NCBI GenBank assembly: GCA_009746045.1
Contig: RPFO01000076.1
Coordinates: 4,883,275-4,947,274, forward strand
DNA: 64,000 bases
From: Mesostigma viride
Lineage: Eukaryota; Streptophyta; Mesostigmatophyceae; Mesostigmatales; Mesostigmataceae
Direction: 5' to 3'
In this document: positions 17,209 through 60,520 of the stretch, piece by piece
Layout: each line of letters begins with the position of its first letter
How positions within the stretch are numbered: position 1 is the stretch's first letter
Made by a program: the position numbers and the translations under genes
Notes under the pieces: model-generated
Database searches by the model: none
Told to the model about the DNA's origin: nothing
Seen by the model: only the letters and a program-made list of their open reading frames with translations

Positions 17209-17242
17209 GCTACATCATCCCCTGTAAATAGTCAATCACCCC

Positions 17243-18570: not shown

Positions 18571-20773
18571 GTGGATGATGGTCTGTCCCTGCTGGAAGAT
18601 GACGAGCAGGAGGAGGCTGCTGAAGCAACTGTCACAAGGCCAGAGGGGACGGGGCAGCCACCTAAGGCCCGGGGGCCTCTCATGGCGGACGTCATCCGAG
18701 CACTCATGCGCAGCAAACATGATCCCAAGGTATCCAAGCTCACGGGGTGGGGGTCGTGCTGGGCAGCTACAATGGAGGTAGATACCAACTCACAGGTGTC
18801 TGTCATCAGGGAAGAGGATGCTGTAGGCTTACAGATGTCCCATCCCAGTTGCCTTGCTGTGTCTGATTTCTCAGGAAAGGTGTCCATGAAGATCCTTGGG
18901 GAAGTGAGTGTGCCTATCTTAGGGGTGCCCACCACGTTCTGTGTGGTAGAGGGCTATAAGGGGCCTGCCATTCTGGGACAGAACTTCTTGTGCATGCCAG
19001 GGGTTACTTTGACCTCTGATGAGTTGGCACTAGAAGGCAGGGGCAGCCTCCCCCTTGAAAGATATCACTATTCCCAGGGTCTTGCAGTGGCGGTGAAGGC
19101 TGTTAGGAGTCAGCCAGCTGAGGGTCCTCAGAGTCAGGAGCCCATAGCTGAGGACTTGTTGATAATCCCAACCACCTTTGATCCAAGGCAGTTAGGGGTA
19201 AACAGGTACCAGATAGCTGCTCACAGTCCTATTCCCTGGCGCCAGCTAGTCGAGATGATGCAGAGCCCCAAGATGGCTAAGGCATGGACTCTTGGCTTTG
19301 TTGCTTCTGGGCATGAGTGGATAGTTTCCAACTGTGCAGAACCTGTGGATGAGCTGCCAGAAGTTCACCAGCTGCTCAGATTGATGTTTGTCCTCAAGCT
19401 CAAGGAGGTTGATGGTGTCCAGGTGCCACATGTCAGACCAGTTGTAACCGAGTATCATGGCACTGGCCAGTTGTTAGATGAGGAGCTCTATACTCCAGGG
19501 ATGCTGCATGACACGTGGAGGATTCTGCTGTGTATATTTCTGTCTTTTCTGGTTAAGGGTGTGCCCTATAGCTCTGTGCTGATTGATTTCAAGAGGGCTT
19601 TTCTCAAGGGTGACCAAGATCAGGCTAGGCAGACTTGGAGAGATATCCCTCCTTTCTTTGTGACTGTACCTGCTGTATGGAGAGCAGAGATAAAGGCCAG
19701 GTACCTGAGAATTCTGAAAGGGTTGGAAGGTCTCAGGTCCAGTCCCATTATCTGGAGAAAGAGCCTAGAGAAATTCTTGAAGAATACTTGTGGGTTCTGT
19801 GTCTCCAGTGGATCCCTGTTTGTTCCAAGGGTCCTACAATGGCCTTCCTGTCTTTGCCTCACTGCATGGTGATGACCTGCATCTCATAGGTCCACCAGAC
19901 TGGGTTGAGGCTGTCTTGGCTAAGATCCAGAAGCGGTTTGAGCTGGGTAAGATACAGCACATGGTGGAGAATGAGCCTATGGTCTTCTGTGGCATGCAGG
20001 CTACGTTGTTCCAAGCCAAGGGCTCGTGGTTCATCAGGATGGAGGGTGGTAAGGACTACCCACAGCAGATTGTAGATGCATTGCAGGAGCCCATCACGCA
20101 GGCTAGGTGTGCTACCATCAGGGGCATGCTGGCATGGCTTGCAAGTATATGTGCCCCTGACTTGCTGGTTCTGAGTCGACTTACTGATTCCCAGCTGGTT
20201 GAGGTGGGTGCTGAGAGTGTGGTGCAGGCTGTCATGATGTCTCCCCCTCTCATACTGGGTCCTGTGGATTTGTACAAGCCCCTTGACATGGTTCTCTATG
20301 TAGACAGTTCTATGGACAATAGGAAGGTCACAGAGGTCAGGGGCCGGGCAGCAGCATTAGTTACCCTGGAGCAAGATCACACCTCACTTGTTACCTGGTA
20401 CAGTCGGTTGCAGAACAGGGTTACACCCAGCAGTGATATTGCTGAGTGCAGGGCAATCTGTGAAGGGCTGCATACTGCTCTTTACTTGAGGGAGCTCTTC
20501 TACCAGCTATGTCAAGTGGCTTCCTGTAGGTTGCAGCTGCACACACTGGTGAGGACTGATAGCATGGGCATGGTGCAATTTGTGCACAGGCAGCTGGCCA
20601 GGAGCAGGGACCTTGACTACTTGTTGCTCAAGGAGATGTCCTACCTAGCTCACATTGAACATGTGCCTGGTGTGGACAACCCTGCAGATGCCCTCACCAA
20701 GCTGGAGGAGAAGGCGGAGAGGCAGTACCCCCTGCTCCGTGGGCTCATGGACCCCTTACACGGGCGGCCATAG
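18571..20773 (+). pseudogene. Copia-1 retropepsin-like domain, reverse transcriptase, RNase H
   Basis: The first frame (18,571 to about 19,790) begins with a retropepsin-like domain: EVDTNSQVSVI takes the place of the usual D-T/S-G-A loop and AILGQNFL is the second psi-loop. The reverse transcriptase begins near 19,230; motif A is LIDFKRAFLKG. A one-base shift near 19,790 passes the frame to 20,773, with the second catalytic motif as LHGDDLHL (HGDD instead of the usual YVDD). RNase H follows: LYVDSS, then SSDIAECRA, then RTDS, ending NPADALTKL. Domain assignment is firm for RT and RNase H (Copia type), good for the protease. The Asn in place of Gly in the active loop is shared with Copia-2. 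Confidence 0.82.
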
Positions 20774-34026: not shown

Positions 34027-34030
34027 AAGG

Positions 34031-34171
34031 TGTCGCGTCTGCGTGCCACAATCTCCGGCGCCACCATGGCGGCTGGCCACTCAGCTTAATTTGGTAAAAC
34101 CCAAATGAGCTGAGCTGACGTGCCTGCCTTAACTGCATGCCCTGTGGGGTGGGCGAGGACCTGTCCCATGT
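34031..34171 (-). repeat. Outer copy of a 140-bp segment at the Gypsy-1 end
   Basis: Nearly identical to 35,426-35,565, which lies on the inner side of the left LTR. It begins TGTCGCG directly after the AAGG target duplication, so it belongs to the integrated element. The right LTR has no such copy. Confidence 0.85.
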
Positions 34172-34176
34172 TTAAT

Positions 34177-35423
34177 GAAAAGAGGGCTCTCAGCCGAGGA
34201 CAAGGAACTGTCCCTCGTGCCTGATGACCACCTTCTTGATCCCCTTGTGTACCGTCGCGTGCCGCGTTTGAATATCCTTGCTGGGGCGTTAGCTAGACGC
34301 TCCAACTACTCTAATTGCGACAATATGATGGTGCAAGAGGGTGCTTTTGCCTCCCCTGCTATAGAACAATGCTTTCACAACACACACTTTGCACAGTCTG
34401 ATGATGAAGCCGCACATGCGGAATTTATTGAGAAAGTTAATACAATTACAACACGTTGATAGTCTCAATATCGATGCACTCCATGCTCACGAGCCCGCAG
34501 TTAGGCAGCGCTCCATGACATGCTACCGGCCTTGCTCCCAAGGAAAGGGAGAAACACGAAGGCCACTAACGAGAGACTCGAAGAGACTACACGCTGCGTG
34601 AGAGTCCTCTTCGACTATGAACCAAACCATTCGTCATGCCACACGCATGACACACGCCACACTTGTCAGTCCAGCCAGGAATGCCAAAACTATCTTGCTG
34701 CCTGAACCATGCAAATAGAAACCGCATTCCAGTTGCCGTCCTGGCTTTCTACCACACATGCCAACAAAAGCAGGAAGGCATCCCGACAAATCTAAATTGC
34801 TACCCTGTTGCCGATCTCATCTCCTAGAGGCTCCGGCATTTCTGTCCCTGGGAATGTCCGGCATTGAGTCACGTCCACCAAGGTCGAAGCATAATATCCT
34901 TCAGACAATCTGCACGCTCACACCTTGCGTGTGAGTGGCCCAGCAAACATTGCGTCTAATCGTTCCTTTCTAGAAGAAATCCCTTTGTAGGGCTGCCAGC
35001 GATTTCGCATTCATTCCAGCGATCTGGCTCCGCACCGCAAATTGTCCTTTTCCATTTTCTGTCCAGTCCTCATAACGTTGACCCGCTATTCTACACCACA
35101 AAGACACCTGGCCTGTCAATAGCCTCGGCGCTGTTGAAGTCCAGCAGTCCAGCTTCAGCTCCAGCTGTCCACTAACACGCGTATGATCCTCTCGACGCTG
35201 CGCACTTGTGCTGCCGTCCGCTCAAGTCAGTGCTGCGCGCCCAGCTGTGCCTGGCCCGGCGCGCGTGCACGTACACTTTCGTCCGCTCTTATGCTGCAAG
35301 TGCTAGTGTCCCCCCCGGTCACTAGCCTTTGTCGAAAATGCGTAGAAAACAAATTCCTTGCGCACGTCACCGGTCTTGTGCATAGTGGGCGCCGCCCGGA
35401 TGACATAGCTCGCGTCCGTGACA
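34177..35423 (-). repeat. Gypsy-1 3' LTR (left)
   Basis: 1247 bp, begins TGAAAAG and ends GTGACA on the + strand. Small frames inside recur in the right copy and are not genes. The true element end lies 146 bases further left. Confidence 0.85.
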
Positions 35424-35425
35424 GC

Positions 35426-35565
35426 TGTCGCGTCTGCGTGCCACAATCTCCGGCGCCACCATGGCGGCTGGCCACTCAGCTTAATTTGGTAAAACCCAAA
35501 TGAGCTGAGCTGACGTGCCTGCCTTAACTGCATGCCCTGTGGGGTGGGCGAGGACCTGTCCCATG
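35426..35565 (-). repeat. Inner copy of the 140-bp segment
   Basis: Follows a G-rich run on the minus strand (GAGGGGGGGAA near 35,567-35,577), a plausible polypurine tract. It overlaps no recognised domain. Confidence 0.8.
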
Positions 35566-35594
35566 ATTCCCCCCCTCGCTGGCGACCGGCCCCA

Positions 35595-38500
35595 TCACGA
35601 AGACAGCGATCGTACCAAGACAAGGGCAGCGGTGACCGCAGTCAAGCTGCGGGAGGTAAACTGCGCAGCGGTGCACACTGGACAAAACCAATCCCCCTCC
35701 GGAATGCTGGTGACCACTGGCTGCAAGCACTGCATGTGCCAACCACAGTTACACTGATCACACAATAACATGGACTCCGCCTGATCGACCCGGTGACAAA
35801 CCTGACACTGGGCGTCCTTGACTCGGCGAGACGTGTGCGGTTGGAGGTCGTGGACCAAATTGGGCAGCGAGCAGGGACTGAGATTGCTGAGGTTGTCAGT
35901 CGTACGGCTCCCGTCGGCGCCCTCCAAAATTGCCACTCCCGATGGTTTGATAGCCACAATGCGCAAAATGGTGGGCCCCGCCTCCACATCCAAAGTGTGC
36001 TTCAGCTGAGTGCGCAGGAAAACATACTGCCCTGGCCTAAACCGCAGCTGGCGAGCCATGTATGCGCCCCCCCGGCGCTGAGCGTAACGCAGGGAGTCCC
36101 TGTGCTGAGCAATGAACAAGTTGTTCATCGCGATGGGCATGACCTTCTTAAAAGTCTCTGCCCTGGCCAGCACCTCAACCAAAAATTGCTGAGCGTTGTC
36201 GAAGGCCATGGGTTCGGGGTGCGCAACCTGTGCCTCCGTAGGCAAAAGAGGATTACGCCCGAACAGAAGGAAATACGGGGAGAAGGTAGCGAGAGACTCC
36301 TGGGGAGACATGCGATAACCCATGGCAATCCATGCCAACTCGCGATCCCACCTGGCCGACTCCGGCACCTGCAGGCTCCACTTGCGCAGCGCCTGCTTGA
36401 CGGTCTGCACCAATCTCTCAGCCAAACCATTGGCCTGAGGATGCTCCCGAGAAGTGCGACGGTGATCAATAAGACATCCATCCAGCAACTCCTGGAACTC
36501 ACCCCTGAACTCACCACCCTGGTCCGTGACTACCTCCGCGGGAGCCCCAAACCTGGTGATGATGTCTGCAAAATGCTTCGCTGTGGTAGCGGCATGCTTG
36601 TCAGCAATGGGGATCAACTCAACCCATTTGCTAAAGCTCTCCACGCATACCATGACATAGAGGTTGCCGTCAGGGCTCTCCTGAAACGGCCCGCACAGAT
36701 CGACGTGCCAGCGATAAAACAAGCCCTTGATGGGAAGCGACATCAGCTCCTTGGCACCATGATCTGCGCTAAAGTTAGCCTTGGTTCGAGCACACGGGAC
36801 ACAGCTGGCCACTACCTGGGCCACTGTGTGTCGCATGTTATTCCACCAATAGCTGGTCCGTACGAGGCTGAGCGTGCGATTGCCACCCAAGTGACCATAC
36901 CGCTCGTGGTACGCCTGCACTATAGCAACGCGCTTGTCAGGCGGTGGGACGACCACCCTACGCTTGCCCAACAGCTTGTACAAAACCCCATCTTCCCAAC
37001 CATAGGTTGCAGCCCTGTGCTGCACCCTGTTCAACTCCGTCGCCTTCTGAGCAGGAGTCCAATCGACTGGAGTAGGAGTCAAGACAGCACCCTGCACTTG
37101 CTCCAAAACTCGACCATCTAGCCAGATATCAGCGGTGTAGCAATCAGCAAGAGAGCTACGCGCTAAGAGAGCCTGCACAGCGATCAGCTGCTGCAGAGAA
37201 GGATCAATGTCAAAGGACAGAGACCTACCCTCTTCCATAGCGCACACAGCTTTGGATGGCGTGAATGGCGACGGCCGCACCGGGTCGTCGCTGATGCCGA
37301 AGTCCGCCACAGAGTACTCGACACTGCGCCACCACGCCTCCTCCTCATCGTCGGCCGCATACCCAGCAGCGTTCACAAAGACCACAGAACCAGACGAGCC
37401 CTCGGCACCCATGGCCCGGGCTCCAGTGTGGTCAACAGTGGTAGGCATGGCGTATCGGGATAGCACATCGGCGTTGACATGGTCCTTGCCGGCCCGATGC
37501 ACAATGGTCATGTGGTACTCCTGGATAATCATGGCCCATCGGGCGAGCTTACCCGTCAGGTTGGTGTTGGTCATTAGCCACTGAAGCGGCTGGTGGTCTG
37601 TCACCAGAGTAAACACGCGCCCAAATAAATACGGGCGAAAGTGCTTGATGGCCCACACCACAGCCAGTGCCTCCCCCTCATAGGAAGAATACCGGCTCTC
37701 CGCTGGGTTGTTGCTGCGACTAGCATAAGCAATAACGTGCTCGCGCCCATCACCATCCTTTTGCGCCAAGACCGCACCCAGTCCTACCTTGGACCAGTCG
37801 GTATATAACACAAATGGCAAAGCATAGTCAGGGGCGCGCAGAATCGGTGCCGACGTGAGCTCCTGCTTGATTGTCTCGATGGCGCGTTGCTGTGCGGGAC
37901 CCCACGCCCACACGCACCCCTTCTTGAGTAACTCGGTCAAGGGCTTCACCTTGCTGCTGAAGTTCTCAATGTAACCTCGGTAATAGCCAGCCAAACCCAA
38001 ATACGCCCGCACCCCTGAGACATCCGTGGGTACGGCGGCCTGCGCAATGGATTCGACCTTGGCGGCATCAGGCGTCCGGCCACCCGGCACAATCTGATGA
38101 CCAAGGAATGAGAGGGTCCGCTGGGCGAACTTGCACTTCTCAGGGTGCAGCCGCATATTATGCTCCTCGAGAGCCAAGCGAACCTGCTCCAAGTGCGCCA
38201 GGTGCTCCTCAAATGTCGCGCTAAAGACGATTACATCATCAATGTAACAAGCGGCGAAAGGAAGACCTGCAAGCACTTTGTCCATAGCTCGTTGGAAAAC
38301 AGCACTAGCGTTGCGGTGCCCAAAGGGCATGCGCACCCACTCATACAAATTGCCGCCCCCCCAGAATGCAAGCTTCCGCTGATCCTCCGGCGCAACTGCG
38401 ATCTGATGAAAGCCGCTACGCAGGTCCAGCGAGGACACAAACTTCACATGAGGAGATATCTTATCCAGGACATCATCCACACGTGGCATGGGGTAACGGT

Positions 38501-39623
38501 CCACGGGTGTGTGTGCATTCAGCAACCGCAGATCGGTGGCCATGCGCATACCCGTCCATGCCCCGGTGATAGCGTCCTTCTTGGGCGCAACGACAACGGC
38601 AGCAGCATAGCTGGAGGAAGATTGCCTGATGATACCGGCATCCTCTAACTCCTTGCATTGCTCGGCTACAAAATCCAACTCGGCCTGACTCAGGCGATGC
38701 TGGCGTCGGAACAAAGGAGTGTCAGTGTCCAATGGAACACGCATGGTCCCACCATTGAAACACCCCAGTTCATCACTTGTGAAAGCGAAGGCCCCCCTTG
38801 CAGTGCCTAGCCACTTTAGCATGGCTGAGCGCTGCGCATCAGAAAGGTGTTCGCCAATAGCCCAGGGGTGCGTATCCGCGGGATCACCCACAGCTACCGC
38901 ATGTGCCTCAAGATGCGGCGCCCTAGCCGCATCGTCGTGGAACAAGGAAAAGGCTGCCACACCTGGTGTGACACCCACCGCCGGAGCCTCGCGTGCCGCA
39001 CGGTGTATTACCCGATGCAGCGTGGGCTCGCCGGCCAGCACGGTGCTGGTCAGCAGGGCGGTCATGAGAATGATAGTCCACACCTGTCGCAGACGCCACC
39101 CCCATGCTGATGAAGTCCCCGTCGCTGCAGGGCGCTTCAGTTTGGCTGCGCGCGCCTCAACCTGCTGAGGCGGATTGGCTGGGGACGCCCCCCCAGACTG
39201 GCGCACGGCAACCGATGCAAGCAGCACATACCCGACCTGCAACACCGACATAGCCTGGCCTATCAAAGACCAGCGCTCACTCTCGAGCACGCCCGGCAGC
39301 GCCGAGGCCCCGACATGAAAACCCATGCTGGCCTCACGAAATTCTGCGGGTGGCTGCACCAACAGACCGGTGGTAGTGTCCCAAACGAGACCCTTACCCC
39401 GATCACGGTATGCTGTCGACCCTTGGTAACTGACCAGGGTCGGCAGTGCACACATGGGGCTCCCGACCCGGTTGACGCGTGCATACGGTGGGCGATCCTC
39501 GCTATCCACCTTCTGCGTGACTAGGTGGGAAGGCAATGCTACCTCCGCAGACACACTCGGATGCTGCCTTGCTACGGCCCCAAGACCGCCTGCACACCGG
39601 TCGCACACGCCACGTTGGTCCAA
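35595..39623 (-). CDS. Gypsy-1 pol: methyltransferase C-terminus, RT, RNase H, integrase, PHD finger
   Basis: A 1342-codon open frame. Residues up to about 140 are the C-terminal part of the C5-methyltransferase, with a motif X-like block SLIGQAMSV (about 119-127). A hydrophobic segment (181-198) could span a membrane. The reverse transcriptase follows (catalytic YIDDV at 460-464), then RNase H (LYTDWSKVGLGAV, Asp609). The integrase has a zinc-binding HHCC (His906, His911, Cys941, Cys944) and a DDE triad (Asp975, Asp1034, Glu1069). A PHD finger with complete C4HC3 ligands (CQVC, CDQC, HMQC, CPVC) ends the protein at residues 1273-1317 (35,673-35,807). PHD fingers bind histone H3 tails, so it may direct integration to particular chromatin. 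The first residues overlap the upstream frame by 52 bases; there is probably no independent start. Confidence 0.93.
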   Translation of the reverse strand: MDQRGVCDRCAGGLGAVARQHPSVSAEVALPSHLVTQKVDSEDRPPYARVNRVGSPMCALPTLVSYQGSTAYRDRGKGLVWDTTTGLLVQPPAEFREASMGFHVGASALPGVLESERWSLIGQAMSVLQVGYVLLASVAVRQSGGASPANPPQQVEARAAKLKRPAATGTSSAWGWRLRQVWTIILMTALLTSTVLAGEPTLHRVIHRAAREAPAVGVTPGVAAFSLFHDDAARAPHLEAHAVAVGDPADTHPWAIGEHLSDAQRSAMLKWLGTARGAFAFTSDELGCFNGGTMRVPLDTDTPLFRRQHRLSQAELDFVAEQCKELEDAGIIRQSSSSYAAAVVVAPKKDAITGAWTGMRMATDLRLLNAHTPVDRYPMPRVDDVLDKISPHVKFVSSLDLRSGFHQIAVAPEDQRKLAFWGGGNLYEWVRMPFGHRNASAVFQRAMDKVLAGLPFAACYIDDVIVFSATFEEHLAHLEQVRLALEEHNMRLHPEKCKFAQRTLSFLGHQIVPGGRTPDAAKVESIAQAAVPTDVSGVRAYLGLAGYYRGYIENFSSKVKPLTELLKKGCVWAWGPAQQRAIETIKQELTSAPILRAPDYALPFVLYTDWSKVGLGAVLAQKDGDGREHVIAYASRSNNPAESRYSSYEGEALAVVWAIKHFRPYLFGRVFTLVTDHQPLQWLMTNTNLTGKLARWAMIIQEYHMTIVHRAGKDHVNADVLSRYAMPTTVDHTGARAMGAEGSSGSVVFVNAAGYAADDEEEAWWRSVEYSVADFGISDDPVRPSPFTPSKAVCAMEEGRSLSFDIDPSLQQLIAVQALLARSSLADCYTADIWLDGRVLEQVQGAVLTPTPVDWTPAQKATELNRVQHRAATYGWEDGVLYKLLGKRRVVVPPPDKRVAIVQAYHERYGHLGGNRTLSLVRTSYWWNNMRHTVAQVVASCVPCARTKANFSADHGAKELMSLPIKGLFYRWHVDLCGPFQESPDGNLYVMVCVESFSKWVELIPIADKHAATTAKHFADIITRFGAPAEVVTDQGGEFRGEFQELLDGCLIDHRRTSREHPQANGLAERLVQTVKQALRKWSLQVPESARWDRELAWIAMGYRMSPQESLATFSPYFLLFGRNPLLPTEAQVAHPEPMAFDNAQQFLVEVLARAETFKKVMPIAMNNLFIAQHRDSLRYAQRRGGAYMARQLRFRPGQYVFLRTQLKHTLDVEAGPTILRIVAIKPSGVAILEGADGSRTTDNLSNLSPCSLPNLVHDLQPHTSRRVKDAQCQVCHRVDQAESMLLCDQCNCGWHMQCLQPVVTSIPEGDWFCPVCTAAQFTSRSLTAVTAALVLVRSLSS

Positions 39624-42600
39624 TAGGCACGCAAACGATGCGTGAGCCCACCCAGCCCTGCGTTGTCACACACGATGGGCTCCCCCAGGAGTGCCACGAT
39701 TGTAGCCCAGTCCTCCCGCACCGCCTGATGTGGGCTGTCACCCGCCACAACGTTCTCAAACAGATACGCAGGCGGATGGGGCTGACGCGACTGCAACAGT
39801 CCCACCACACGCAACAGTTCCCAGAACAGCGCGCTACGCGGATCGGCTAGCCCCCGCCCTTGCCCTGCCTGGCTCAGGCCCTGGCACTCCCAACCCGCAA
39901 TTACCAAGTCGATGGCATGATGCCTGCGCAACAACTGCTGCACCTGCACCTCACCGATGGCTCGGATATCTTGAGGACATTCCCCAAACGGGTCACGCCA
40001 TGCTGATGGCGGAAACTGCGCGGGATACTCTCGCGACAACACGCCACAGTGACTGAAGTACACCTGACGCGCCTTGTGCGATGGCTCTACCGCGATGAGT
40101 TTACGGCACACGCCGCCTGCGGCCAAAAAGCCTGCAATGCCCCCTCCGATCCCCGCAAACAGTTCCAACACTACCGCACCCTTGGCAAAATCAGGGGCCT
40201 GCGGTAAGATTGCAGCAGAAAAATTACCTTGGGCCTCCGAGACACCCGGTTGCACCAAAGTGAGGCCATGGCTGGCCATCTGAGGAATGGTGATGACGGC
40301 TTCAGTCACCCGCTTGCGCATAGCCAGCTGCCGCGTGGACGTCACAGCATCCAGCGACCACTGCGTGCGCATCTTGGCAATGCTCGCCGTTGGCTGAGGC
40401 AGCACCGTCCGATGCTTGTCCCACGCCGATGAGCCCGCCGCCCGTACCTCCACCATGCTGACCTCCACCACGCCCGCAGCCGCGGAAGGGTTGAGGCGTG
40501 CAGCCCCGGCTGAAGAACTGAAGCATGAGACCGGCACACTGGCCCGCTTCAGGCCAGCCCCATCCCAATCAGGGATGTAAGATGCCTCCTCCGCCCTATA
40601 GTCCACCTGAACCATGGCGCGAGCAAGGACATCCACCCCGAGTAGTGCGGAATATCCACACTTGTTGACCACCAGCGCATACGCGGACACGGTGGTCATG
40701 CTAGAGGCGCGCAACGGATTGAAAATCACGTTGACTTTAACCGCCGTCATAGCGTACGGCTTACTAGCCGGACCCTGCCAACCTGACACAGACACGGGGC
40801 TTTCCACTAAGCCACCGTTCTCGTAGGTCAGGTTCAGCATGGTGGCCAAGTCTGTGCTGATGACTAGCGGCTGAGCACCGCTATCAAGCTTGACTGCGCC
40901 AACCAACGGACATGTCACCATGTCGCTCCATACATCTCCACAGGCTCCAACTGCTTGGAACGCTATGGACGGCTCACCATTGGGGTATGGAACCACCGTG
41001 GGAACCTGGGGAACTGCACTAGTGCGCTGCTGGCTACTTGTGCTGACCACTCCCGCTTGCACCACGGGCACTGCGGCTTCTACCGGCTGACGCCCGTAGG
41101 TGACGGACTCAGAATTGCGCAAGGTGCGCACATCATGCCCATCTGCGAACAACTGGATCTCGGACACAACCGACCCCAGCCACTCAACCCCCTTCTGCCC
41201 GAAGGTGTCGACCACCTGCCGTGCTGAAAACATGGGTACGTCCACAATGAACGGCATTGGGTACACAGGCGCCAATCGCCTACGCTGCTCCAGCCCAGCA
41301 GGGTTCGCATGCTCAAAAGCAGATTGCACCCCAGCCAGCGGCATGGAAAAGGACGCGGGCAACTGCCCGGCAGGCAACATGGGTGCCTGCTGAAAAGAAA
41401 GCGGGCTGCGTGCCTGCTTGCCTTTGGTAGCCTCCGCAGCGTTGATCTCGACGTCACCCGGCATGGGCGCCCAGAATGGGTCCTCCCGGTACACCGTCGC
41501 GAATTGGTTGGGGGGCGCCGTCGCCTCCTCACCATGCTTGATGGCAGCCACCTGGGCTTCCATCGAGTCGGTCTTGCCCGCCATCTCGGCGAAGTGGACC
41601 GTCTTGATGCCCGCGGCTGGACACTTGTTCATCAGGTGCCACTTCGTGTCTGCCCCATGCGGCTTCGTGCAGCGGCTTGGACACTCGCGACTAAGGTGCC
41701 CATCCTTGTCGCAAAGGTAACATTTACCGCGTGACGGGGTGGGTGCGCCCAGCGCGCCTTGCACGCCCTGCGCCTCCTGAGTCCCATCCGATGACGGCGG
41801 ACGACCGCCTCCGCCTCGACCACCACCGCGACCCCGACCACCGTAGCCACTGCCGCCGCCACCACGACTGACACCGCCACTGCCACCCTGACCGCCACCG
41901 CCGCTGCCCCCGTGACCGGCGTTGCCACCACCCTGAGTGCCGACATATTCACCGCGCCCCGCACCAGGCAGCCGCTGGCCACCCTTGACCGCGATGGCCT
42001 TCTCCATCTCAGCCATCTTCTTGCGCATCTCAGCCAGCTCAGACGAGATACCCTTCTCGCCTTCCGCACGCTTCCTGAGCAGCCGCTTGAATGCTGCACA
42101 GAGAGTCACCAAAGTCCACTCCCCACCGGGCGGCTCCGGAAGATCGATGGCCAGCAGGGGCACTGCACTCCGCCATAACCGGCAAGCCTTGGTCTGCGTA
42201 TAATCAGGCACTTTGCCCGCAAACGCGAGAAGCCGGTCAAGGGAGAAAGCCGGATCCTCACCCTCGGCGACGGTGAACGCTCCATTCCATTCCGCGATGG
42301 CCTTGACGTGCTCAACTGGGTACTCCAGCCGCAGTTGCTGCCACAGCTGCTCTGCCGGGTCGACATCGAAGATGATCGAGTCGAGATCCGGTGTGCCCAT
42401 GTCCGTGAGCGCAAACCATATGTCCGTGCGATGACATCGGTCCACGAGCGCTCGGTAATGCTGGACCAAAACCTGGACCTTCTTCTTGGTCAGGTCATGG
42501 AAAAAAAGGTGAATAAAATCCATCACCATCTCATGGCGAAGAGGATACCCCGAGGCATAACGATAAGTGTTACAATGAGCTCGGAAGAGCTCATAGGCTT

Positions 42601-43738
42601 CCTCTAAAGTCGCACCCGTGCCTGCTGAGGTGAACTTCTCGCGAAGCTCCACCTTGGGCAGCGATGGCACACGAGTGGATTCGCCATGCACGCCGTACGG
42701 CATGCGGTGGGGTCGCTGGACGTCGTCGCCCTCACCCCATGGTATGCTGGCTACCTCCCGATCGACTTGGCCCCAGCCGAAGTCTGACCGAGTGCCGCCA
42801 AGCCTGGGCCGCCCTGCGGTGCCACCCAACGGCGTTGCTGCCGCCGTCATGGGTGGCCGACCTGTGCTAAACAAGCCACCTGATGCTCCCCCCCTGGGGG
42901 CTGCACCATACCCGCCGCGCCACGATAACGTGCCTTGGTTGGGTGCCCGTAGGTTCCCCCCCAGCGTATAAGATGCGTCGGCAGTCGACCGGGTGCCTAC
43001 CCGACCGACGTTCGGCTGCAGCTCGTCATCCTGCGCCATTTCCCCGTCGCCCCGCCGTTGACCGCTTGGTCCGACGCGTGGCTGACTGGGCTCAACGTTG
43101 CGTAGTGGACCTGTCCCACTGCGCTCTTCGTCGAAGTGTCCGCGTTGGTCGCGCAGCGCCTCATGTCGCCGCGCTTCCTCGGCAGCGGCCTCCTCGTCGG
43201 CAGCCTGCCTGGCCTCGGCGTCGCGTTGGGCCGCAGCTTGGCAGGCGCGTGCAGCTTCCGTGGTTGCCTCCGCCTGCCGCCGTTGCTCAGCGCGCTCCGT
43301 AGCACGCCTCGCTTCAGCCGTAGATTCCGCGCGCTCCAAAGCAAGTCGCACAGTTTCTTCAACAAGCGTCGCCTGTTGCGATAACTGCGTCGCTTGCTGA
43401 GCTCGGAGTGCCGCCAGCTCTGCCGCTTGCTCTTGCAGCAGGCGCAGCACTTGGGTAAGAGCACCACCGTCCCCTGCCGAAGAAAGGGAAGGCGCTCCAT
43501 TACCTAACAAAGCGGTGTCCGCACTAGTGCCGAGACGACCGCTGGGCGGGTCAGTTGCTTGACCGCCCGTAGCTGCCGGCGCTGACCCACCACTGCCTGA
43601 TGCTGTGGGGTCAGTTCCTGACATGTTGATGGTGGTATCGACCCTGGAGAGCTCCTGCCCGTCGGTGTCGACGCCCGTGTTGGCACAGCCTGCGTGGCTT
43701 GCCAAAAACGCTGTGACCGACCTAGTGTGATATGACAT
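39572..43738 (-). CDS. Gypsy-1 Gag, retropepsin and N-terminal C5-DNA methyltransferase
   Basis: Likely starts at ATG 43,738 or ATG 43,624; the frame is also open slightly upstream. Gag has an Ala/Glu/Arg-rich coiled-coil-like region, a capsid part and a Gly-rich linker, then a CCHC knuckle CYLCDKDGHLSREC (about residues 673-686, numbered from 43,738). The retropepsin follows with LDSGAQPLV (catalytic Asp952) and ALLGVDVL. At about residues 1188-1388 lies the methyltransferase N-terminal part: motif I VVLELFAGIGGG (SAM binding), motif IV DLVIAGWECQGLSQAG with the catalytic Cys1285, motif VI AYLFENVV and motif VIII HRLRAYWTN. It would transfer methyl from S-adenosylmethionine to C5 of cytosine. 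The frame stops at 39,572; a shift of one base in a GGGG run near 39,580 would join it to the next frame. Confidence 0.92.
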   Translation of the reverse strand: MSYHTRSVTAFLASHAGCANTGVDTDGQELSRVDTTINMSGTDPTASGSGGSAPAATGGQATDPPSGRLGTSADTALLGNGAPSLSSAGDGGALTQVLRLLQEQAAELAALRAQQATQLSQQATLVEETVRLALERAESTAEARRATERAEQRRQAEATTEAARACQAAAQRDAEARQAADEEAAAEEARRHEALRDQRGHFDEERSGTGPLRNVEPSQPRVGPSGQRRGDGEMAQDDELQPNVGRVGTRSTADASYTLGGNLRAPNQGTLSWRGGYGAAPRGGASGGLFSTGRPPMTAAATPLGGTAGRPRLGGTRSDFGWGQVDREVASIPWGEGDDVQRPHRMPYGVHGESTRVPSLPKVELREKFTSAGTGATLEEAYELFRAHCNTYRYASGYPLRHEMVMDFIHLFFHDLTKKKVQVLVQHYRALVDRCHRTDIWFALTDMGTPDLDSIIFDVDPAEQLWQQLRLEYPVEHVKAIAEWNGAFTVAEGEDPAFSLDRLLAFAGKVPDYTQTKACRLWRSAVPLLAIDLPEPPGGEWTLVTLCAAFKRLLRKRAEGEKGISSELAEMRKKMAEMEKAIAVKGGQRLPGAGRGEYVGTQGGGNAGHGGSGGGGQGGSGGVSRGGGGSGYGGRGRGGGRGGGGRPPSSDGTQEAQGVQGALGAPTPSRGKCYLCDKDGHLSRECPSRCTKPHGADTKWHLMNKCPAAGIKTVHFAEMAGKTDSMEAQVAAIKHGEEATAPPNQFATVYREDPFWAPMPGDVEINAAEATKGKQARSPLSFQQAPMLPAGQLPASFSMPLAGVQSAFEHANPAGLEQRRRLAPVYPMPFIVDVPMFSARQVVDTFGQKGVEWLGSVVSEIQLFADGHDVRTLRNSESVTYGRQPVEAAVPVVQAGVVSTSSQQRTSAVPQVPTVVPYPNGEPSIAFQAVGACGDVWSDMVTCPLVGAVKLDSGAQPLVISTDLATMLNLTYENGGLVESPVSVSGWQGPASKPYAMTAVKVNVIFNPLRASSMTTVSAYALVVNKCGYSALLGVDVLARAMVQVDYRAEEASYIPDWDGAGLKRASVPVSCFSSSAGAARLNPSAAAGVVEVSMVEVRAAGSSAWDKHRTVLPQPTASIAKMRTQWSLDAVTSTRQLAMRKRVTEAVITIPQMASHGLTLVQPGVSEAQGNFSAAILPQAPDFAKGAVVLELFAGIGGGIAGFLAAGGVCRKLIAVEPSHKARQVYFSHCGVLSREYPAQFPPSAWRDPFGECPQDIRAIGEVQVQQLLRRHHAIDLVIAGWECQGLSQAGQGRGLADPRSALFWELLRVVGLLQSRQPHPPAYLFENVVAGDSPHQAVREDWATIVALLGEPIVCDNAGLGGLTHRLRAYWTNVACATGVQAVLGP

Positions 43739-43899
43739 AAACTGCCACAACCACTACCAAGTAGCAACGGTCTAATCTGAAAGACTTAATGGTTGATCAG
43801 GCCACTATGTGTGCTAGTCTTCCCCAGAAAACTGCACACCGTCTCTCTTTGCTGAAATGAAAATGTTCCTTTGCAGATGGAGCTAGTCTCTTCGAGTAA

Positions 43900-45151
43900 T
43901 GAAAAGAGGGCTCTCAGCCGAGGACAAGGAACTGTCCCTCGTGCCTGATGACCACCTTCTTGATCCCCTTGTGTACCGTCGCGTGCCGCGTTTGAATATC
44001 CTTGCTGGGGCGTTAGCTAGACGCTCCAACTACTCTAATTGCGACAATATGATGGTGCAAGAGGGTGCTTTTGCCTCCCCTGCTATAGAACAATGCTTTC
44101 ACAACACACACTTTGCACAGTCTGATGATGAAGCCGCACATGCGGAATTTATTGAGAAAGTTAATACAATTACAACACGTTGATAGTCTCAATATCGATG
44201 CACTCCATGCTCACGAGCCCGCAGTTAGGCAGCGCTCCATGACATGCTACCGGCCTTGCTCCCAAGGAAAGGGAGAAACACGAAGGCCACTAACGAGAGA
44301 CTCGAAGAGACTACACGCTGCGTGAGAGTCCTCTTCGACTATGAACCAAACCATTCGTCATGCCACACGCATGACACACGCCACACTTGTCAGTCCAGCC
44401 AGCAATGCCAAAACTATCTTGCTGCCTGAACCATGCAAATAGAAACCGCATTCCAGTTGCCGTCCTGGCTTTCTACCACACATGCCAACAAAAGCAGGAA
44501 GGCATCCCGACAAATCTAAATTGCTACCCTGTTGCCGATCTCATCTCCTAGAGGCTCCGGCATTTCTGTTCCTGGGAATGTCCGGCATTGAGTCACATCC
44601 ACCAAGGTCGAAGCATAATATCCTTCAGACAATCTGCACGCTCACACCTTGCGTGTGAGTGGCCCAGCAAACATTGCGTCTAATCGTTCCTTTCTAGAAG
44701 AAATCCCTTTGTAGGGCTGCCAGCGATTTCGCATTCATTCCAGCGATCTGGCTCTGCACCGCAAATTGTCCTTTTCCATTTTCTGTCCAGTCCTCATATA
44801 AACGTTGACCCGCTATTCTACACCACAAAGACACCTGGCCTGTCAATAGCCTCGGCGCTGTTGAAGTCCAGCAGTCCAGCTTCAGCTCCAGCTGTCCACT
44901 AACACGCATATGATCCTCTCGACGCTGCGCACTTGTGCTGCCGTCCGCTCAAGTCAGTGCTGCGCGCCCAGCTGTGCCTGGCCCGGCGCGCGTGCACGTA
45001 CACTTTCGTCCGCTCTTATGCTGCAAGTGCTAGTGTCCCCCCCCGGTCACTAGCCTTTGTCGAAAATGCGTAGAAAACAAATTTCTTGCGCACGTCACCG
45101 GTCTTGTGCATAGTGGGCGCCGCCCGGATGACATAGCTCGCGTCCGTGACA
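43900..45151 (-). repeat. Gypsy-1 5' LTR (right)
   Basis: 1252 bp, near identical to 34,177-35,423. A segment of about 160 bases (43,739-43,899) between it and the gag start would contain the primer-binding site; no standard initiator-Met tRNA match was seen. Confidence 0.88.
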
Positions 45152-45155
45152 AAGG

Positions 45156-47995: not shown

Positions 47996-50037
47996 TCATG
48001 GCTTACCCACCTGGCCAGAGCCTGCTCCAGCAGACTTGGCCTGGTCTGGGCAGTCACGTCGCCAATGACCCGTCCTGCCACATCCAAAGCACTTATCATC
48101 CTTCCCAGCAGCAGCCTTCTTCAGGCCACCCTGGTTCTGGCTGCTCTGACTGGCCTGGGTGCCCTGGCCCTGGCTCTTGCCTTGCCCTTGGCCACCCTTA
48201 TTCTGCTGACCACCCTGGTGACCTCCAGCCTGCTGCTGACCCTTGCCTTTGGATCTCTGCTGCTGGCCCTTGCCACCCTGGTTACCATTCTGCCTGCGCC
48301 TGTTAGCCCTCTGACGCCTACTAGGCCTGGGATCTGCCTGAGCACCCTGCCCAGGGGCATCACCATGGACCTGATGAGCGGAGGCTGAAGGGGCACCAGT
48401 CACCTGGACTGCCTTGCAAGCAGCATTGTCAGATGGACGGATGTTAAAAATAACCCTTTGTAAGGCTGTCCACGTCCCATCTGTCTGATCAGCAAACATC
48501 CTAGCTGCATTTCTCCCATCCACACTCAGCCCCATGCGATCCAGGAAGTAATCTGCCACTGCTCTGTCAGTCAGATTGAAGCCATGCTTGGCCCCCTTCT
48601 CCCTGATGCGTGTGAGCCGCTGCAGCTCCTCAGCTACCGTGCCCTTGATCTCAAAGGTATCATAGCTGAGCTTATAGTGATTAGTGAGGTTGAGTACCTT
48701 ATCAGAGAACTCCTGACGTAGGCCCTCTAGGAACTGAGACCAAGTCAGCTTGTCCTTGACAGCTTGCCTAGCCTTGTCCCTCACACGCTCAAGTGCTGGA
48801 ATCCCTATTAGTCGTGGATGTGTGGAATACCTGCACAAGGTTGACAGTGGGATCTACAGAGCAAGAAACTAGCTCCATATCCTCCAACCACTTGTCTAGC
48901 TCTTCCTGTCCCACAGGAGGCTTGAGAGGCTTCTGGCCATTCATCACAGCCACAGCACTCATGTGAGGTCTAGTCCCAGGCAAAGCACGAGGGTCACTGC
49001 CAATGACAGCAGTGTCAGAAATTTTCATATAATTCCTTGGTCGTCAAGACTGATTGAGACAATTGATAATCAGTTTATTCATTGCATATTTAGGTTACGG
49101 ACTGCCACCGTTTCACCGCCAAAGCCATGGTGCGGTTCCCGGGTGGGGACCATAGCATCCATAGCCACACTGGGCTCGGACTGCAAGGTAAGTGCAACGT
49201 AGGTGCGTCACTTCCTTATCAAGGCACATTGGGGCAGCGGTGCACGTTCTAGAATATTCTGCACAAGTTGCCAGCTGTCAATTATACAATTGACGATTAG
49301 GAGAACGCCAGATGTCAAGCAACTAACACGGCATACAATGCATCTAGAACTGGATTCAGTCATACGAAATATCCAACACGGAATATTCGGCCGAGGATAG
49401 TACACCGTCGGCACCTAAGGTACGCAAAGTATTGTGCCGGAATTACAACTTCGGCACTACATAACTTTTGCTATACTGCACTATATTCAGTGCTATAAGC
49501 TGTGCCGGAAAGCTCACGGCGGGCCCTACCAAGCCTATTTAATTATCGGCCAGAAAGACGGCAGGCGGGTGCGATTGTTAGGGACGCAACCCTAATACCT
49601 CCGTTTACAACATGATGGCCAGACACTACAAATGTAAACAGGCAGACGGCAGTTGGGCACACAGGGTGAAATTCACCTCTGACAAGCAGCTCCTACTGTA
49701 CTGGTGCTAATGGCGCAGGAACACTAGCTGCAGGTGGAGTGACACCAGCATCAGGCACACGTGGTCTCTTACCCGGGCCTTGACGTTCAGCATCCTCCTG
49801 GCCCTCCCCCGTCAGCACCACGCCGTCGGTTGGCCACCCCGCACGCTCCTCCCCTTGTGCCACCTCTTTCCTCTTCCGGATGGATGCCCTCCTGCCATTG
49901 GCGCCCTCTGCCGTTGGGATTGCCTGTCCCTCTGGCGCGACGCTGGCTGGGCCTCTCGTATCCGCCCTTGCCTCACCACCGCCATCACCCGCCCCCGCCC
50001 CGCTCCCGCTGCCGCTCCCGCGCGTGTTACGAAGCAT
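47996..50037 (-). pseudogene. Copia-2 gag, interrupted by a solo LTR
   Basis: The N-terminal charged arm (50,037-49,693) is separated from the capsid and nucleocapsid part (49,007-47,996) by the solo LTR at 49,013-49,684. The capsid shows LDKWLEDMEL and DRMGLSVDGRN as in Copia-1. A Gln/Gly/Lys-rich linker follows, then the zinc knuckle CFGCGRTGHWRRDC with all four ligands. A frameshift separates the part before about 48,790 from the rest. Confidence 0.82.
49013..49684 (+). mobile_element. Solo LTR in Copia-2 gag
   Basis: 672 bp, from TGTCAGA to TCTGACA, with a 5-bp target duplication AGCAG (49,008-49,012 and 49,685-49,689). No internal coding region. Orientation is assigned by the TG end sharing 200 bases with the left arm of the composite at 45,631. 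The inverted 7-bp ends and TG/CA termini are typical of LTRs. Confidence 0.82.
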
Positions 50038-51963: not shown

Positions 51964-52682
51964 CCATCATTGATGGAATTTGCCCTTTTGTGTTTGTCAA
52001 GCTCCCCCTTGATGGCAAAGGCATGCCTTTCACCCAAGCTCTTGACGCAAACGGCAAGCCCTACGCGATGCCGCCTGGGCCAGCTAGGGATGCCACCTTG
52101 GCAGTTGGTGAACGTCTCTTGGCCACGCTTGATGTGCAGCAGTTCTCCAAGTATCCGGCTGCGTTCTGCCGTGTGGGCAATAATTCAGCCCCTTTTCCTT
52201 TCGATGAGGCACCGGGATGGCAGTCTTCTCGCCCTGCAAAGGTGCCCAAGCTGGCATCACCCGTGCCAGCATCTCCAGCTGCCAGGCGTGCATCACTCAC
52301 GCCAGGAAAGCCGGCTGCCCACAGGCGTGCATCCCTCGTGCCAGAATCGCCTGCCAAGCGTGCTTCACTCACACCGGAACTGCCAACTGCCAAGCATGCC
52401 CGCAAGGATAGAAAAGCATTCGTGGATCTTACGAACACAGAGACGCAATCCAAGCCTACAAAAAAGCCTAAATCAGAAGACTCACTTGGTGGCATGGGCG
52501 ACGACATCATGGGCAAGGGCAAGGGTAGCGAGGGCAAGGGCAAGGGTAGCGAGGGCAAGGGCATGGGCTGCACTGGCACGCAGGATGCAAACATGGGCAT
52601 GTTTGGCATGCAGGGCATGAATAGCATGGGCGCAGATGGCACGAGTATGGTTGGCATGGGTATGAATGGCACGGGAATAGGT

Positions 52683-53193
<511 letters not shown>

Positions 53194-53276
53194 CAGGCAT
53201 GCAGCCGCCAACGGGGACGAAGGGACAAAATAGGCAAGGCACGAGCTATGCCAGCAATCCGGACCTTGTATCGTAA

Positions 53277-58301: not shown

Positions 58302-60520
58302 TTGGAGGGCATCAAGGTCCTCATTGACAGTGGTGCGGCTACCACCTTCGTCAGTGAGGCCATAGTGCAGCGCCTGGGAGTAACCCCGACTCCCCATACC
58401 ATTGCTCGGTGCGTGCGATACTCGGATGGCTACACTCAGCCATCCCCGGGCTATGTGGACTTGGCCCCCATCGTACAAGGCACCAGCGTGCCCATTCGCG
58501 CCACGGTCATTCCCTTACATTGAAGCGGCTGATATCATCCTAGGGATTGACTGGCTGCACATCTCCAAGGTGACCGTCTCTTTTGGTACCATGGTTACCC
58601 ACTTCCCAGATGGGTCATTCTGGTTACCTGAGCGGCAGTATGCGGCCAACGGCATGACCATCACCGATTACACGCCTGCCCTCAAGAGTGACCGTCGTCG
58701 CCTTGCGGACATTCTCATGTCCAAAAGGGAGTTCAAGCGGATGATGAGAGCCCGGCAGCCTCCTCCCGTTTACTCCATTCGTCTGGACGCCCTTGCCCAC
58801 GCGCGCGGGCCCAGCGCCCAGCATGCCCAGGCTGGAGTTTCGTTAAACTCGCTTGGCATGGACTTGTCGGAAGACGAGGTGAAACGACTCAACGCAGTGC
58901 TCGATCAGTATTCAGCCGTGTTTGAGGAGAAAACACCTACGTTTCCCCCAGCCAGACCGGTGCTCCACCGCATTCATTTGCAGGAGGGGCACCCACCTAT
59001 ATACCACCTCACCCATTTTTCGCATGGGGCCCGTGGAGTTGGCAGAGCTCAAGAAGATCTTGGTCGGCTTGTTGGAGGCCGGCTTGATCGAGCCCAGCAA
59101 TAGCCCTTACAGCGCGGGCGTGTTGCTGGTGCCCAAACCCAATGGGAAGTGGCGTCTGGTTACGGATTATCGCAAACTCAATGCGATCACCGTGGAGTCC
59201 AAGTATCCCCTCCCCCGCATCGATGATATATTTAATAAGGTGGAGGGCGCAAAGTACTTTACGGTGCTCGATTGTGCCGACGGTTTTTGGCAACTTCGGA
59301 TCGCCCCCGAAGATTGCCATAAAACAGCCTTTGCCACGCCTTTTGGCCATTACCAATTCCGCGTGGCGGCCATGGGCTTGTGTAACAGCCCTGCCTCTTT
59401 TCAGATGCTCATGAACCACCTCTTTAGGTCAGTGATGGGCACTAGTCGGCTGCCCCAGGTCTCGGCAGACCTGCGCGACCCGACTATCCCGTGGGACCCG
59501 GGGACGCAGCCGTACAAACGCACCTGCGTGGCCATCTACTTGGATGACATCTTCATTTTCTCTCGCACGTTCGAGGAGCACTTGGAGGATGTTGCCGCGG
59601 TTCTGCAGATCATGGCGGATAATAAACTGTCCGCCCGCCGCAACAAGGTAGAATCAGGCCGCAGCGTCCCCTTTCTAGGCCACATTCTCTCGGACAAGGG
59701 CGTGTCCACGGACCCCGATAAGGTCGCCGCCGTCCAACAGTGGCCTATTCCCGCGAATGTTCGCGCCTTGCGCAGCTTCTTGGGCTTGGTATCGTATTAT
59801 CGCCGCTTCATCCCGCGTTTCGCGACCATTGCGGCCCCGCTTACTCACCTCCTCAAGAAGGACGTACCGTGGGAATGGTCAGGCCTGTGTCAACAGGCCT
59901 TTGACTTGCTGAAGGCCAGGCTCGCCACTGCGCCTGTCCTCATCCTTCCGGATCCCACCAAGCCATTTGTGCTCAATAGCGATTCTAGCAAGGTTGCTAT
60001 TGGCGGTGTGCTGCTCCAAGACCATGGTCTCGGTCTCCAACCGGTCGAGTATATCTCCCGGACGATGATCCCGGCCGAAAGAAATTACCCGGTCCATCAG
60101 CAAGAGTTGTTGGCCGTGGTGTACTGTTGCCATACTTGGCGGCACCATCTTCTGGGTGCTCAGTTCAACCTGGCTATGGCCGAACCCGACCCTGCGGACC
60201 CGTACCGCTTGATCATCCAGACCGACCATCGGCCCCTCACGCACTTGTTGACGCAGCCCACGCTTACGCCACGCCAAGCCCGTTGGCTTGAATATTTGGC
60301 ACAGTTCGGTCCGTTCAAGATCGAATATGTCAAGGGCCTTGACAACACGGTCCCTGACGCCCTGTCGCGTCGCCCCGACTATTGGTTTTATGAGGATCTT
60401 GACGTTTTGGCCACGACGTTGATCCCCTCCCATGGTCCCGTCGCCCCCTTTGGCGAGCGCTTGAGCGACCCGGCCGATGAGCCCCTTCCTCTTCTGTGGC
60501 GCCACAACCGCGGAGGTTGA
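58302..60520 (+). pseudogene. Gypsy-2 retropepsin, reverse transcriptase and RNase H
   Basis: The retropepsin is in two frames: LIDSGAATTFV (58,302-58,523) and IILGIDWLHI (from about 58,525). The RT frame (to 60,520) follows a further shift near 59,020. It has LVPKPNGKWRLVTDYRKLN, then VLDCADGFWQLRI (catalytic Asp), then VAIYLDDIFIFS (YLDD). RNase H has LNSDSSKVAIGGVL, then HQQELLAVV, then QTDHRPL, then NTVPDALSRRPD. There is no integrase: coding similarity stops near 60,520, about 300 bases before the Copia-3 LTR. With three or more shifts, this copy is inactive. Confidence 0.85.

Follow-up and report, generated by a model that had tools for sequence, protein, structure and literature searches.

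Cytosine methyltransferases carried by retrotransposons have been described in LINE and DIRS elements of the dinoflagellate Symbiodinium and in Klebsormidium nitens, a charophyte with a Gypsy element whose repeats are DIRS-like (PMC5890265, in the portion available); this is the 2018 report that a preliminary description of the present locus had correctly cited. The K. nitens enzyme gave no methylation in yeast, a result that its authors called inconclusive, and the available text of the paper (de Mendoza 2018, PMC5890265) does not describe a primer, an attachment junction, joining of circles or a target duplication for KnitGypsy. Capture of a DNMT3 by a Gypsy element is thus not new, because it was reported for Klebsormidium. 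A separate line of background concerns integration itself: the circle-junction model of Panganiban and Temin (1984) was later abandoned for linear DNA in retroviruses, according to the available part of PMC11054761.

In the window, the 64,000-nucleotide stretch of Mesostigma viride DNA analysed here, a Ty3/Gypsy-type retrotransposon occupies positions 34031–45151 on the minus strand, with the target-site duplication CCTT on its 3' side (34027–34030) and its 5' side (45152–45155). The 5' terminal repeat A1 (1255 bp, 43897–45151) precedes the coding region, which is followed by repeat B1 (143 bp, 35426–35568), repeat A2 (1251 bp, 34173–35423) and the 3' terminal repeat B2 (143 bp, 34031–34173), all on the minus strand; the final base of A2 is common to B2, and the order of the copy is A-gene-B-A-B. 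Among the features expected of Ty3/Gypsy elements, a Ty3-type reverse transcriptase (RT) and an integrase behind RNase H are present, whereas one identical LTR per end is absent, A standing at one end and B-A-B at the other. A standard LTR reading was abandoned: initial searches for repeats found a direct repeat of 1.25 kb, yet a 146-bp stretch recurred outside it. The element extends to the end of B2, because an empty-site paralogue of its host element lies at 18761–20670 of the same window and the target duplication brackets the same borders. A1 and A2 are identical at 1245 of 1251 aligned bases, with 4 gap positions besides; the window copy is young and recently inserted.

Two open reading frames on the minus strand encode, in order, a gag zinc knuckle, protease, methyltransferase, RT, RNase H, integrase and PHD finger. 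ORF1 (39572–43753) holds gag with its CCHC knuckle (41675–41728), an aspartic protease region (40574–40978; weak in Pfam, E 0.06, and covered by a profile built from the window and its relatives) and methyltransferase motifs I–VIII. ORF2 (35595–39665) holds the end of the methyltransferase, RT and RNase H (37512–38615; Ty3 Gag-Pol, 5.1e-83), an integrase with H2C2 and DDE core (36249–36953; PFV integrase, 4.1e-19) and, at the polyprotein C-terminus, the PHD finger (35667–35816; PF00628, 5.5e-9; BAZ2B, 7.6e-14). A Pfam scan of both ORFs returned no tyrosine recombinase or phage-integrase match, no chromodomain at the integrase C-terminus, where the PHD finger lies, and no other DNMT-associated domain.

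The preliminary description had placed a C5-cytosine methyltransferase between the protease and RT of a single Gypsy element, and the analysis bears this out. A complete motif set spans 39204–40189 on the minus strand: motif I (LFAGIGGG), the Cys loop (AGWECQGLSQAG), ENV, motif VIII (HRLRAYW), a target-recognition/IX block (ALPTLVSYQGSTAYR) and a motif X block (ERWSLIGQAMSV). The motifs do run along one strand, as had been stated, but that account missed a frame change that splits the enzyme into an N-terminal DNMT3-like part with motifs I–VIII in the ORF1 frame (39575–40189) and a C-terminal part with IX–X in the different frame of ORF2 (39204–39587). The order I, IV with the catalytic Cys, VI, VIII, IX, X is distributed over two frames in the window and runs in a single frame in copies L103–L105. 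The match of ORF1 to the DNA_methylase family is significant (Pfam PF00145, E=3.9e-11, score 43.4 bits, cut-off 22), and a profile from six related domains recovers both halves (ORF1, 5.9e-64; ORF2, 1.9e-24). Profile comparison with PDB entries and the fold of a relative both place DNMT3 nearer than DRM or bacterial enzymes. In the methyltransferase tree, the retroelement clade groups with DNMT3A/C pieces against 12 bacterial-type rows (SH-aLRT 98; the tree holds no DRM row). By sequence profile, tree and predicted fold, the last taken from a relative, the domain is DNMT3-like.

This domain belongs to a family of 174 related proteins with two domain positions, whose named members come from green algae and a liverwort. 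The 85 relatives placed in the methyltransferase tree form one clade; rows without neighbouring domains, including Closterium P0036 and likely Spirogloea P0055, were omitted. The RT tree holds 49 rows of 97 candidates, and PR-DNMT is two rows in it, because a length filter dropped P0009 and P0056; both trees were built by a rapid method and contain few outgroup rows. The Glu that precedes the catalytic Cys, singled out earlier as a departure from the usual Pro, is genuine, but it is nothing unusual among these proteins: a column count over the 174 relatives gives E 92, P 70, D 2 and S 2, with one uncovered and seven gaps. Glu/Pro changes were counted with every bacterial-type and DNMT3 row taken by default as Pro. 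Among the listings of related proteins, none labelled K. nitens was found. A genome scan returned three loci, of which L012, on a contig filed as a cyanobacterial MAG, is a relative and the other two match over a short part only; an IMG/VR scan gave 11 loci with short matches at 32–45% identity, and an IMG/VR scan with P0002 gave none.

The preliminary description had named absence of the domain from all other copies as one observation that would count against it; instead, at least 150 genome places, the window included, match a 242-aa query covering motifs I–VIII at 99–100% with no inner stop, a count that, since copies were found by this domain, is uninformative on copies lacking it. Of four other copies read, three (L103–L105) have the whole methyltransferase in frame with RT and one (L106) is split as in the window; in none of the four does an open frame run uninterrupted from gag to the end of the PHD finger, and frames of up to 3371 aa are listed as open among the genome places. 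A whole methyltransferase from the window copy needs frameshifting or the help of another copy. We considered whether the break could be a programmed −1 frameshift site. In 34 of the 150 places, among them the window and L106, the match continues up to the residue that directly precedes the stop within the window's domain, and this form has spread, because six of eight scored copies of the class have their own exact 4-bp duplication; both observations would suit such a site. Against it, the match ends one residue earlier in the other 116 places, three of which, when read, have no stop across the domain and as far as RT; the frame of the published gene model P0001 likewise continues past the break; and the place itself is a run of one base, with no canonical slippery heptamer by eye. 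Programmed frameshifting is disfavoured and in our judgement distinctly improbable.

The same split copies bear on whether the methyltransferase is a passenger that does no enzymatic work and serves, say, as a structural component of the polyprotein. The spread of the split class would agree with this, as would the inactivity of the K. nitens enzyme in yeast (PMC5890265, available part). Conversely, the catalytic Cys, the ENV Glu and R-x-R are near-invariant over the 174 relatives, which are about 40% identical where compared, and the domain is whole and in one frame in most of the copies read; we regard a mere passenger as doubtful. CpG observed/expected is 0.86 in the element versus 0.65 in the rest of the window; the element is not depleted in CpG and so carries no mutational sign of self-methylation, but its copies are young.

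The ends of the copies were then compared with those of the window. Forty further copies comprise 28 with B-A-B (21 with A1 in view, the other seven showing no A1 within the fetched 5' stretch), two of the order A-gene-B, and ten that are cut or ambiguous. One copy (C224) has other sequence, starting CTCGAA, after A2. Like the window, 17 of 20 scored B-A-B copies and both A-gene-B copies (19/22 together) have an exact 4-bp duplication; of the three B-A-B copies that do not, two keep three of the four bases and one is next to a stretch of Ns. An ordinary LTR retrotransposon inserting from linear cDNA, with the extra B as a by-product in a few copies, would account for the Ty3-type RT, the retroviral-type integrase and the 4-bp duplications. 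However, the 21 B-A-B copies with both ends in view end in A and B2, not in the cDNA ends that the polypurine tract and primer would set; the two A-gene-B copies end in A and B; and B occurs in none of the 40 fetched 5' stretches, whereas A1 occurs in 29. This reading is already contradicted, and we give it almost no credence.

The internal junctions differ sharply in constancy. The attachment-like B1|A2 junction CGACA-GC-TGTCACGG (35416–35430, minus strand), a 15-mer also present in L012, is identical to the window's in 28/28 other copies. The polypurine tract GAGGGGGGG (35569–35577, minus strand), which adjoins B1, is likewise identical in 28/28 copies, and the tract, the primer site and the B|A junction show no variation in any copy where they can be read. 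The A2|B2 join, on the other hand, is a blunt union of two reverse-transcript ends in 21/28 copies and irregular in 7/28, with A2 cut at 702, 731 or 919 and fused to B2 (in one case with two bases added and one lost), a 92-nt filler, single added bases, or one altered join. A tRNA primer was rejected, there being no TGG at the A1 border, and a self-primer was found instead: a 14-nt candidate primer-binding site (43884–43897, minus strand) is complementary to a site in repeat A, which in A1 lies at 44300–44313 on the minus strand (A position 839) and is the likely 5' end of the transcript. This 14-nt complementarity recurs in 28 of 29 complete A1 repeats; L012 has no comparable self-primer, its best inverted match being 13 nt and located elsewhere.

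Together, the invariant B|A junction, the variable A2|B2 join, the 19 exact duplications and the two A-gene-B copies point to cDNA circles opened by integrase, and the joins at the copy ends suggest that the element likely inserts from circular DNA. Templated circularisation of the DIRS kind (split-direct-repeat style) would also make A-gene-B-A-B, with the A2|B2 join copied rather than end-joined; the repeat order matches that reported for DIRS and KnitGypsy-Dnmt3 (PMC5890265, as far as available), and the 21 blunt joins are identical within each sublineage. We nevertheless consider it unlikely, given seven irregular A2|B2 joins beside a B1|A2 junction that never varies, and given a DDE integrase and target duplications with no tyrosine recombinase found by Pfam in either ORF. 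Head-to-tail cDNA concatemers, rather than circles, as the integration substrate would give the same order and the same joins; no multimeric insertion stood out in passing among the copies, and we rate this very unlikely.

Under the circle route that we prefer, transcription would start at the A1 self-primer site and end in A2, and reverse transcription, predicted to be self-primed, would yield a linear cDNA with B-A repeats. The ends of this cDNA would be joined by host end-joining into a 2-LTR circle, or recombined into a 1-LTR circle, which integrase would cut at the internal attachment site CGACA-GC-TGTCACG. Before the element inserts, its methyltransferase may methylate the cDNA or circle; a candidate role of the PHD finger is to guide the element to a type of chromatin. 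As a whole, we think it probable, from sequence comparison, that this is a young multi-copy Gypsy element with a DNMT3-like domain that is self-primed, circle-joined and opened internally by integrase, with cDNA methylation as a putative addition. With somewhat less assurance, we lean towards a lineage that normally integrates LTR circles at an internal site and that acquired DNMT3 in a single event close to the base of the green lineage, the domain later moving from before RT to before the integrase.

What appears to be new is the 174-protein family with its two domain positions, 85 members falling in one clade, and the A-gene-B-A-B joins, which suggest circles. Named members of the retroelement-borne DNMT3-like family come from a liverwort as well as from chlorophytes and streptophyte algae, a wider range than the charophyte and the dinoflagellates treated in the available text of the 2018 paper. 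Many nearly identical copies in one host make self-methylation and circle integration directly testable in a single alga.

Among known systems, KnitGypsy-Dnmt3 is similar in having Gypsy RT, RNase H and integrase with a DNMT3-type domain in Pol, a streptophyte algal host and the order A-coding-B-A-B, here seen in the window and in 28 of 40 further copies; it differs in its host, Klebsormidium nitens rather than Mesostigma viride. The circle route would account, in a way that can be tested, for finding DIRS-like repeats on a Gypsy element whose integrase is of the DDE type; the 2018 paper, in the part available, leaves them unexplained. SymbioDIRS-Dnmt3 and SymbioLINE-Dnmt of dinoflagellates share a captured cytosine methyltransferase, and the former the A-coding-B-A-B repeats too (PMC5890265, in part), while belonging to other retroelement classes. 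They use a tyrosine recombinase or LINE machinery; the Mesostigma element has a DDE integrase and, in the Pfam scan of its two ORFs, no tyrosine recombinase. DIRS retrotransposons are not known to make a target-site duplication, in contrast to the exact 4-bp duplications seen here. DNMT3A/B/C and plant DRM provide the closest solved structures and sequences. The DNMT3 motif order I–X is the same, whereas DRM has a rearranged order that the Mesostigma domain does not follow, and the window member carries a Glu, not a Pro, ahead of the catalytic Cys. Tf1/sushi and Tcn1-type chromoviruses are likewise self-priming (PMC6317226, available part), but the Mesostigma element has no chromodomain match; it combines a PHD finger with a methyltransferase and has B-A-B ends. 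The retroviral circle-junction model similarly invokes a two-LTR circle as substrate and a junction with twofold symmetry (PMC11054761, available part); the site proposed to be opened in Mesostigma is the B|A junction within the repeats rather than the join of one end to the other. If this proposal is correct, a circle route abandoned for retroviruses is in use in Gypsy elements of green plants.

Two overlapping minus-strand frames encode the element's proteins: ORF1 (39572-43753, 1393 aa) and ORF2 (35595-39665, 1356 aa), which lies in a different frame and overlaps ORF1 by 94 bases. Pfam assigns to ORF1 a CCHC knuckle and a DNA_methylase domain (3.9e-11), with weak protease matches, and to ORF2 RT, RNase H, the zinc finger and core domains of an integrase, and a PHD finger whose closest match is BAZ2B. 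The C5-methyltransferase proposed in the preliminary description is borne out by this HMM match: the domain runs from 40189 to 39204 on the minus strand, with motifs I to VIII within ORF1 and IX and X within ORF2, and a profile of its relatives matches both parts (5.9e-64 and 1.9e-24, respectively). A six-frame scan of the 64-kb window found no other methyltransferase.

The published Mesostigma gene model P0001 (EukProt label Mesvir1) has two long segments that match the window at 98.1% and 99.7% and, past a frame change, a third of 101 residues at 72%, in which the end of the model diverges; the window thus most likely comes from the streptophyte alga Mesostigma viride. Across the genome (440 Mb, 2243 contigs), 150 of 427 candidate places were scored; all 150 are 99-100% identical to a 242-aa query spanning motifs I-VIII, with no inner stops. 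By our own row count over these places, the match reaches the last query residue in 34, including the window, whose frame ends right after, and one residue less in 116. Among four copies that were read, L103 and L104 hold a frame of 2074 aa that spans protease through PHD finger, L105 holds a 2671-aa frame from part of gag into the PHD finger, and L106, of the group of 34, is split as in the window with more breaks downstream. The A1 and A2 repeats differ by 0.08-0.72% (median 0.24%, 19 copies), and this low divergence indicates that the copies are young.

Three protein searches yield a family of at least 174 proteins among the matches listed (P0001-P0057, P0124-P0240), a minimum since 31 of the 151 matches of the third search lie outside these; P0058-P0123 (66 proteins, named bacterial enzymes among them) were left out as bacterial-type by score drop and names. 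Named hosts include Haematococcus lacustris, Monoraphidium neglectum, Marchantia polymorpha and two Closterium strains, and one record is presumably Spirogloea, going by its gene prefix. Most C5-methyltransferases elsewhere have Pro before the catalytic Cys. The Glu reported there in the preliminary description is present, but it is not the oddity it was taken for: with Glu in 92 of the 174 relatives (Pro 70, Asp 2, Ser 2, gap 7, uncovered 1), it is a common state in this retroelement family, and the residue switches at least 12 times on the tree when outgroup rows are entered as Pro. RT or RNase H lies upstream of the methyltransferase in 106 relatives, integrase parts alone lie downstream in 12, protease lies upstream or RT downstream in 12, as in the window, and 44 have no neighbouring domain.

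In a methyltransferase tree built by a quick method (100 rows, taking in 85 of 111 non-redundant relatives), all retroelement rows form a single clade (support 96), within which rows with RT/RNase H upstream or integrase downstream form a clade of their own (100); the protease-before rows, window included, fall outside the latter. An RT tree of 51 rows separates methyltransferase-bearing rows (99) from Ty3 and the window's Gypsy RT without methyltransferase, and pairs the window with P0002 (81) as sister to the remaining rows (94). These topologies fit a single DNMT capture followed by a single relocation of the domain, although the RT tree has only two outgroup rows and a long window branch. 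A Gypsy RT/RNase H frame lies at 58883-60517 (plus strand). The relative L012 (1-9285), labelled as the MAG of an uncultured cyanobacterium (Synechococcales), holds protease and methyltransferase, an in-frame stop, then RT, RNase H, integrase and PHD, and its first 127 nt equal its last 127; it looks like a eukaryotic Gypsy-DNMT element despite the label, and contamination of the same type seems to underlie the MAG names of P0023 and P0214. The liverwort protein P0220 (Marchantia polymorpha Mp_4g09160) combines protease with the same methyltransferase domain, whereas a passage of PMC6338049 states that transposon methylases are absent from land plants such as tracheophytes.

Repeat comparison gives the order A-gene-B-A-B, with A1 at 43897-45151, B1 at 35426-35568, A2 at 34173-35423 and B2 at 34031-34173, all on the minus strand. 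The element is nested within an ORF that belongs to a second retroelement, Copia-like on visual inspection, between duplications at 34027-34030 and 45152-45155; the empty site is visible in a diverged copy of this host (18761-20670, plus strand), and by eye a single CCTT restores the host frame once the element is removed. Two further direct repeat pairs, 13981-14516/21774-22308 (7.8 kb apart) and 23738-24400/51264-51969 (27.5 kb apart, possibly filled with nested insertions), are possibly LTRs of other elements. The window also contains a 12-bp tandem array with an occasional 18-bp step (52678-53241) and a 171-bp inverted repeat (45655-45825/46216-46386, 98% complementary, 390 bp between) with a relative at 49022-49229.

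A polypurine tract immediately precedes B1, and a 14-nt stretch whose first nucleotide is the final base of A1 is complementary to the sequence at A position 839 (shuffles reaching 13: 0/1000). The transcript's own 5' end thus likely serves as the primer. From this reading of primer site and polypurine tract, the cDNA would start with AATCATGG (B) and terminate in CATT (A).

We surveyed 40 further copies, chosen among the 150 rows because they lie on long contigs; 10 belong to the group of 34 and 30 to the group of 116. The 3' end is B-A-B in 28 (A1 in view in 21), A-gene-B in 2 and B1-A2 only in 3 (one N gap, one interrupted A2, one continuing into other sequence); 7 stretches have no 3' end. 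No B was found in the 5' stretches of these 40 copies (A1 visible in 29). The B1-A2 junction and polypurine tract (28/28 each) and the primer site (29/29) are invariant, and all but one of the 29 complete A1 repeats keep the self-primer site. An exact 4-bp duplication flanks 17 of 20 scorable B-A-B copies (of the others, two keep three of four bases and one, near an N run, two) and both A-gene-B copies (GACT and AACC). The end-to-end A2-B2 join reads CTTT/AATC in 15 and CATT/AATC in 6 of the 28 B-A-B copies, in each case both reverse-transcript ends of the copy's own sublineage, exactly abutted. Seven are irregular: two have added single bases, three join B2 to an A2 truncated at 702, 731 or 919, one has a 92-base filler, and one is altered in a copy whose B2 has also taken up a later ~0.44 kb insertion; the window's join has a one-base difference. 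Insertions starting AGTTAA lie within B2 or A2 of L049/L050 (C1107) and L081/L082 (C1613); that in C1107 (~0.44 kb, TAACT end, ACAGG on both sides) is likely a small DNA transposon.

Because the A2-B2 join varies while the neighbouring junction stays fixed, end-joining is favoured over a templated join. At the internal B-A junction 2 bp separate two inverted ends (TGTCACG and CGCGACA), and the same 15 bases occur in L012, whose ORF2 identity is 45.6%; no 15-base word was common to mononucleotide shuffles (0/200, longest 14). A two-LTR circle opened at this junction would yield a B-A-B copy, and a one-LTR circle an A-gene-B copy. Based on the varied joins, the two copy forms, the inverted ends and the bases shared with L012, we prefer integration from circles; cDNA concatemers as the substrate instead seem improbable.

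The conserved catalytic residues argue for methyltransferase activity. By analogy with a proposal for DIRS elements in 2018 (PMC5890265), the role we prefer would be methylation of the cDNA or circle ahead of insertion; against it stands the K. nitens enzyme, for which the same paper describes no methylation in yeast, a result its authors regard as inconclusive. The M. viride genome carries 5mC, chiefly CG (PMC6947507). The DNMT element lacks CpG depletion (observed/expected 0.86), which counts against self-methylation. By comparison, 16001-20000 has a ratio of just 0.23 and is probably an older, heavily CpG-depleted element. That the PHD finger might guide insertion is a guess.

The main text of the Mesostigma genome paper (PMC6947507) contains neither 'dnmt' nor 'gypsy', and its single 'methyltransferase' refers to CMT/DMT genes; a 2025 paper notes DNMT3 inside streptophyte and dinoflagellate retrotransposons (PMC12344493). 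Text passages of CC-licensed PMC papers yielded no account of a circle route for a Gypsy element. Circles as integration substrate recall the retroviral two-LTR circle model, put forward in 1984 and doubted from 1987 (PMC11054761), and the priming proposed here is that described for Tf1/sushi and Tcn1 elements, which use the transcript's own 5' end (PMC6317226). A DNMT-bearing Gypsy element with DIRS-like repeats is already known from K. nitens, where De Mendoza et al. described KnitGypsy in 2018 (PMC5890265), and the Mesostigma element shares this arrangement.
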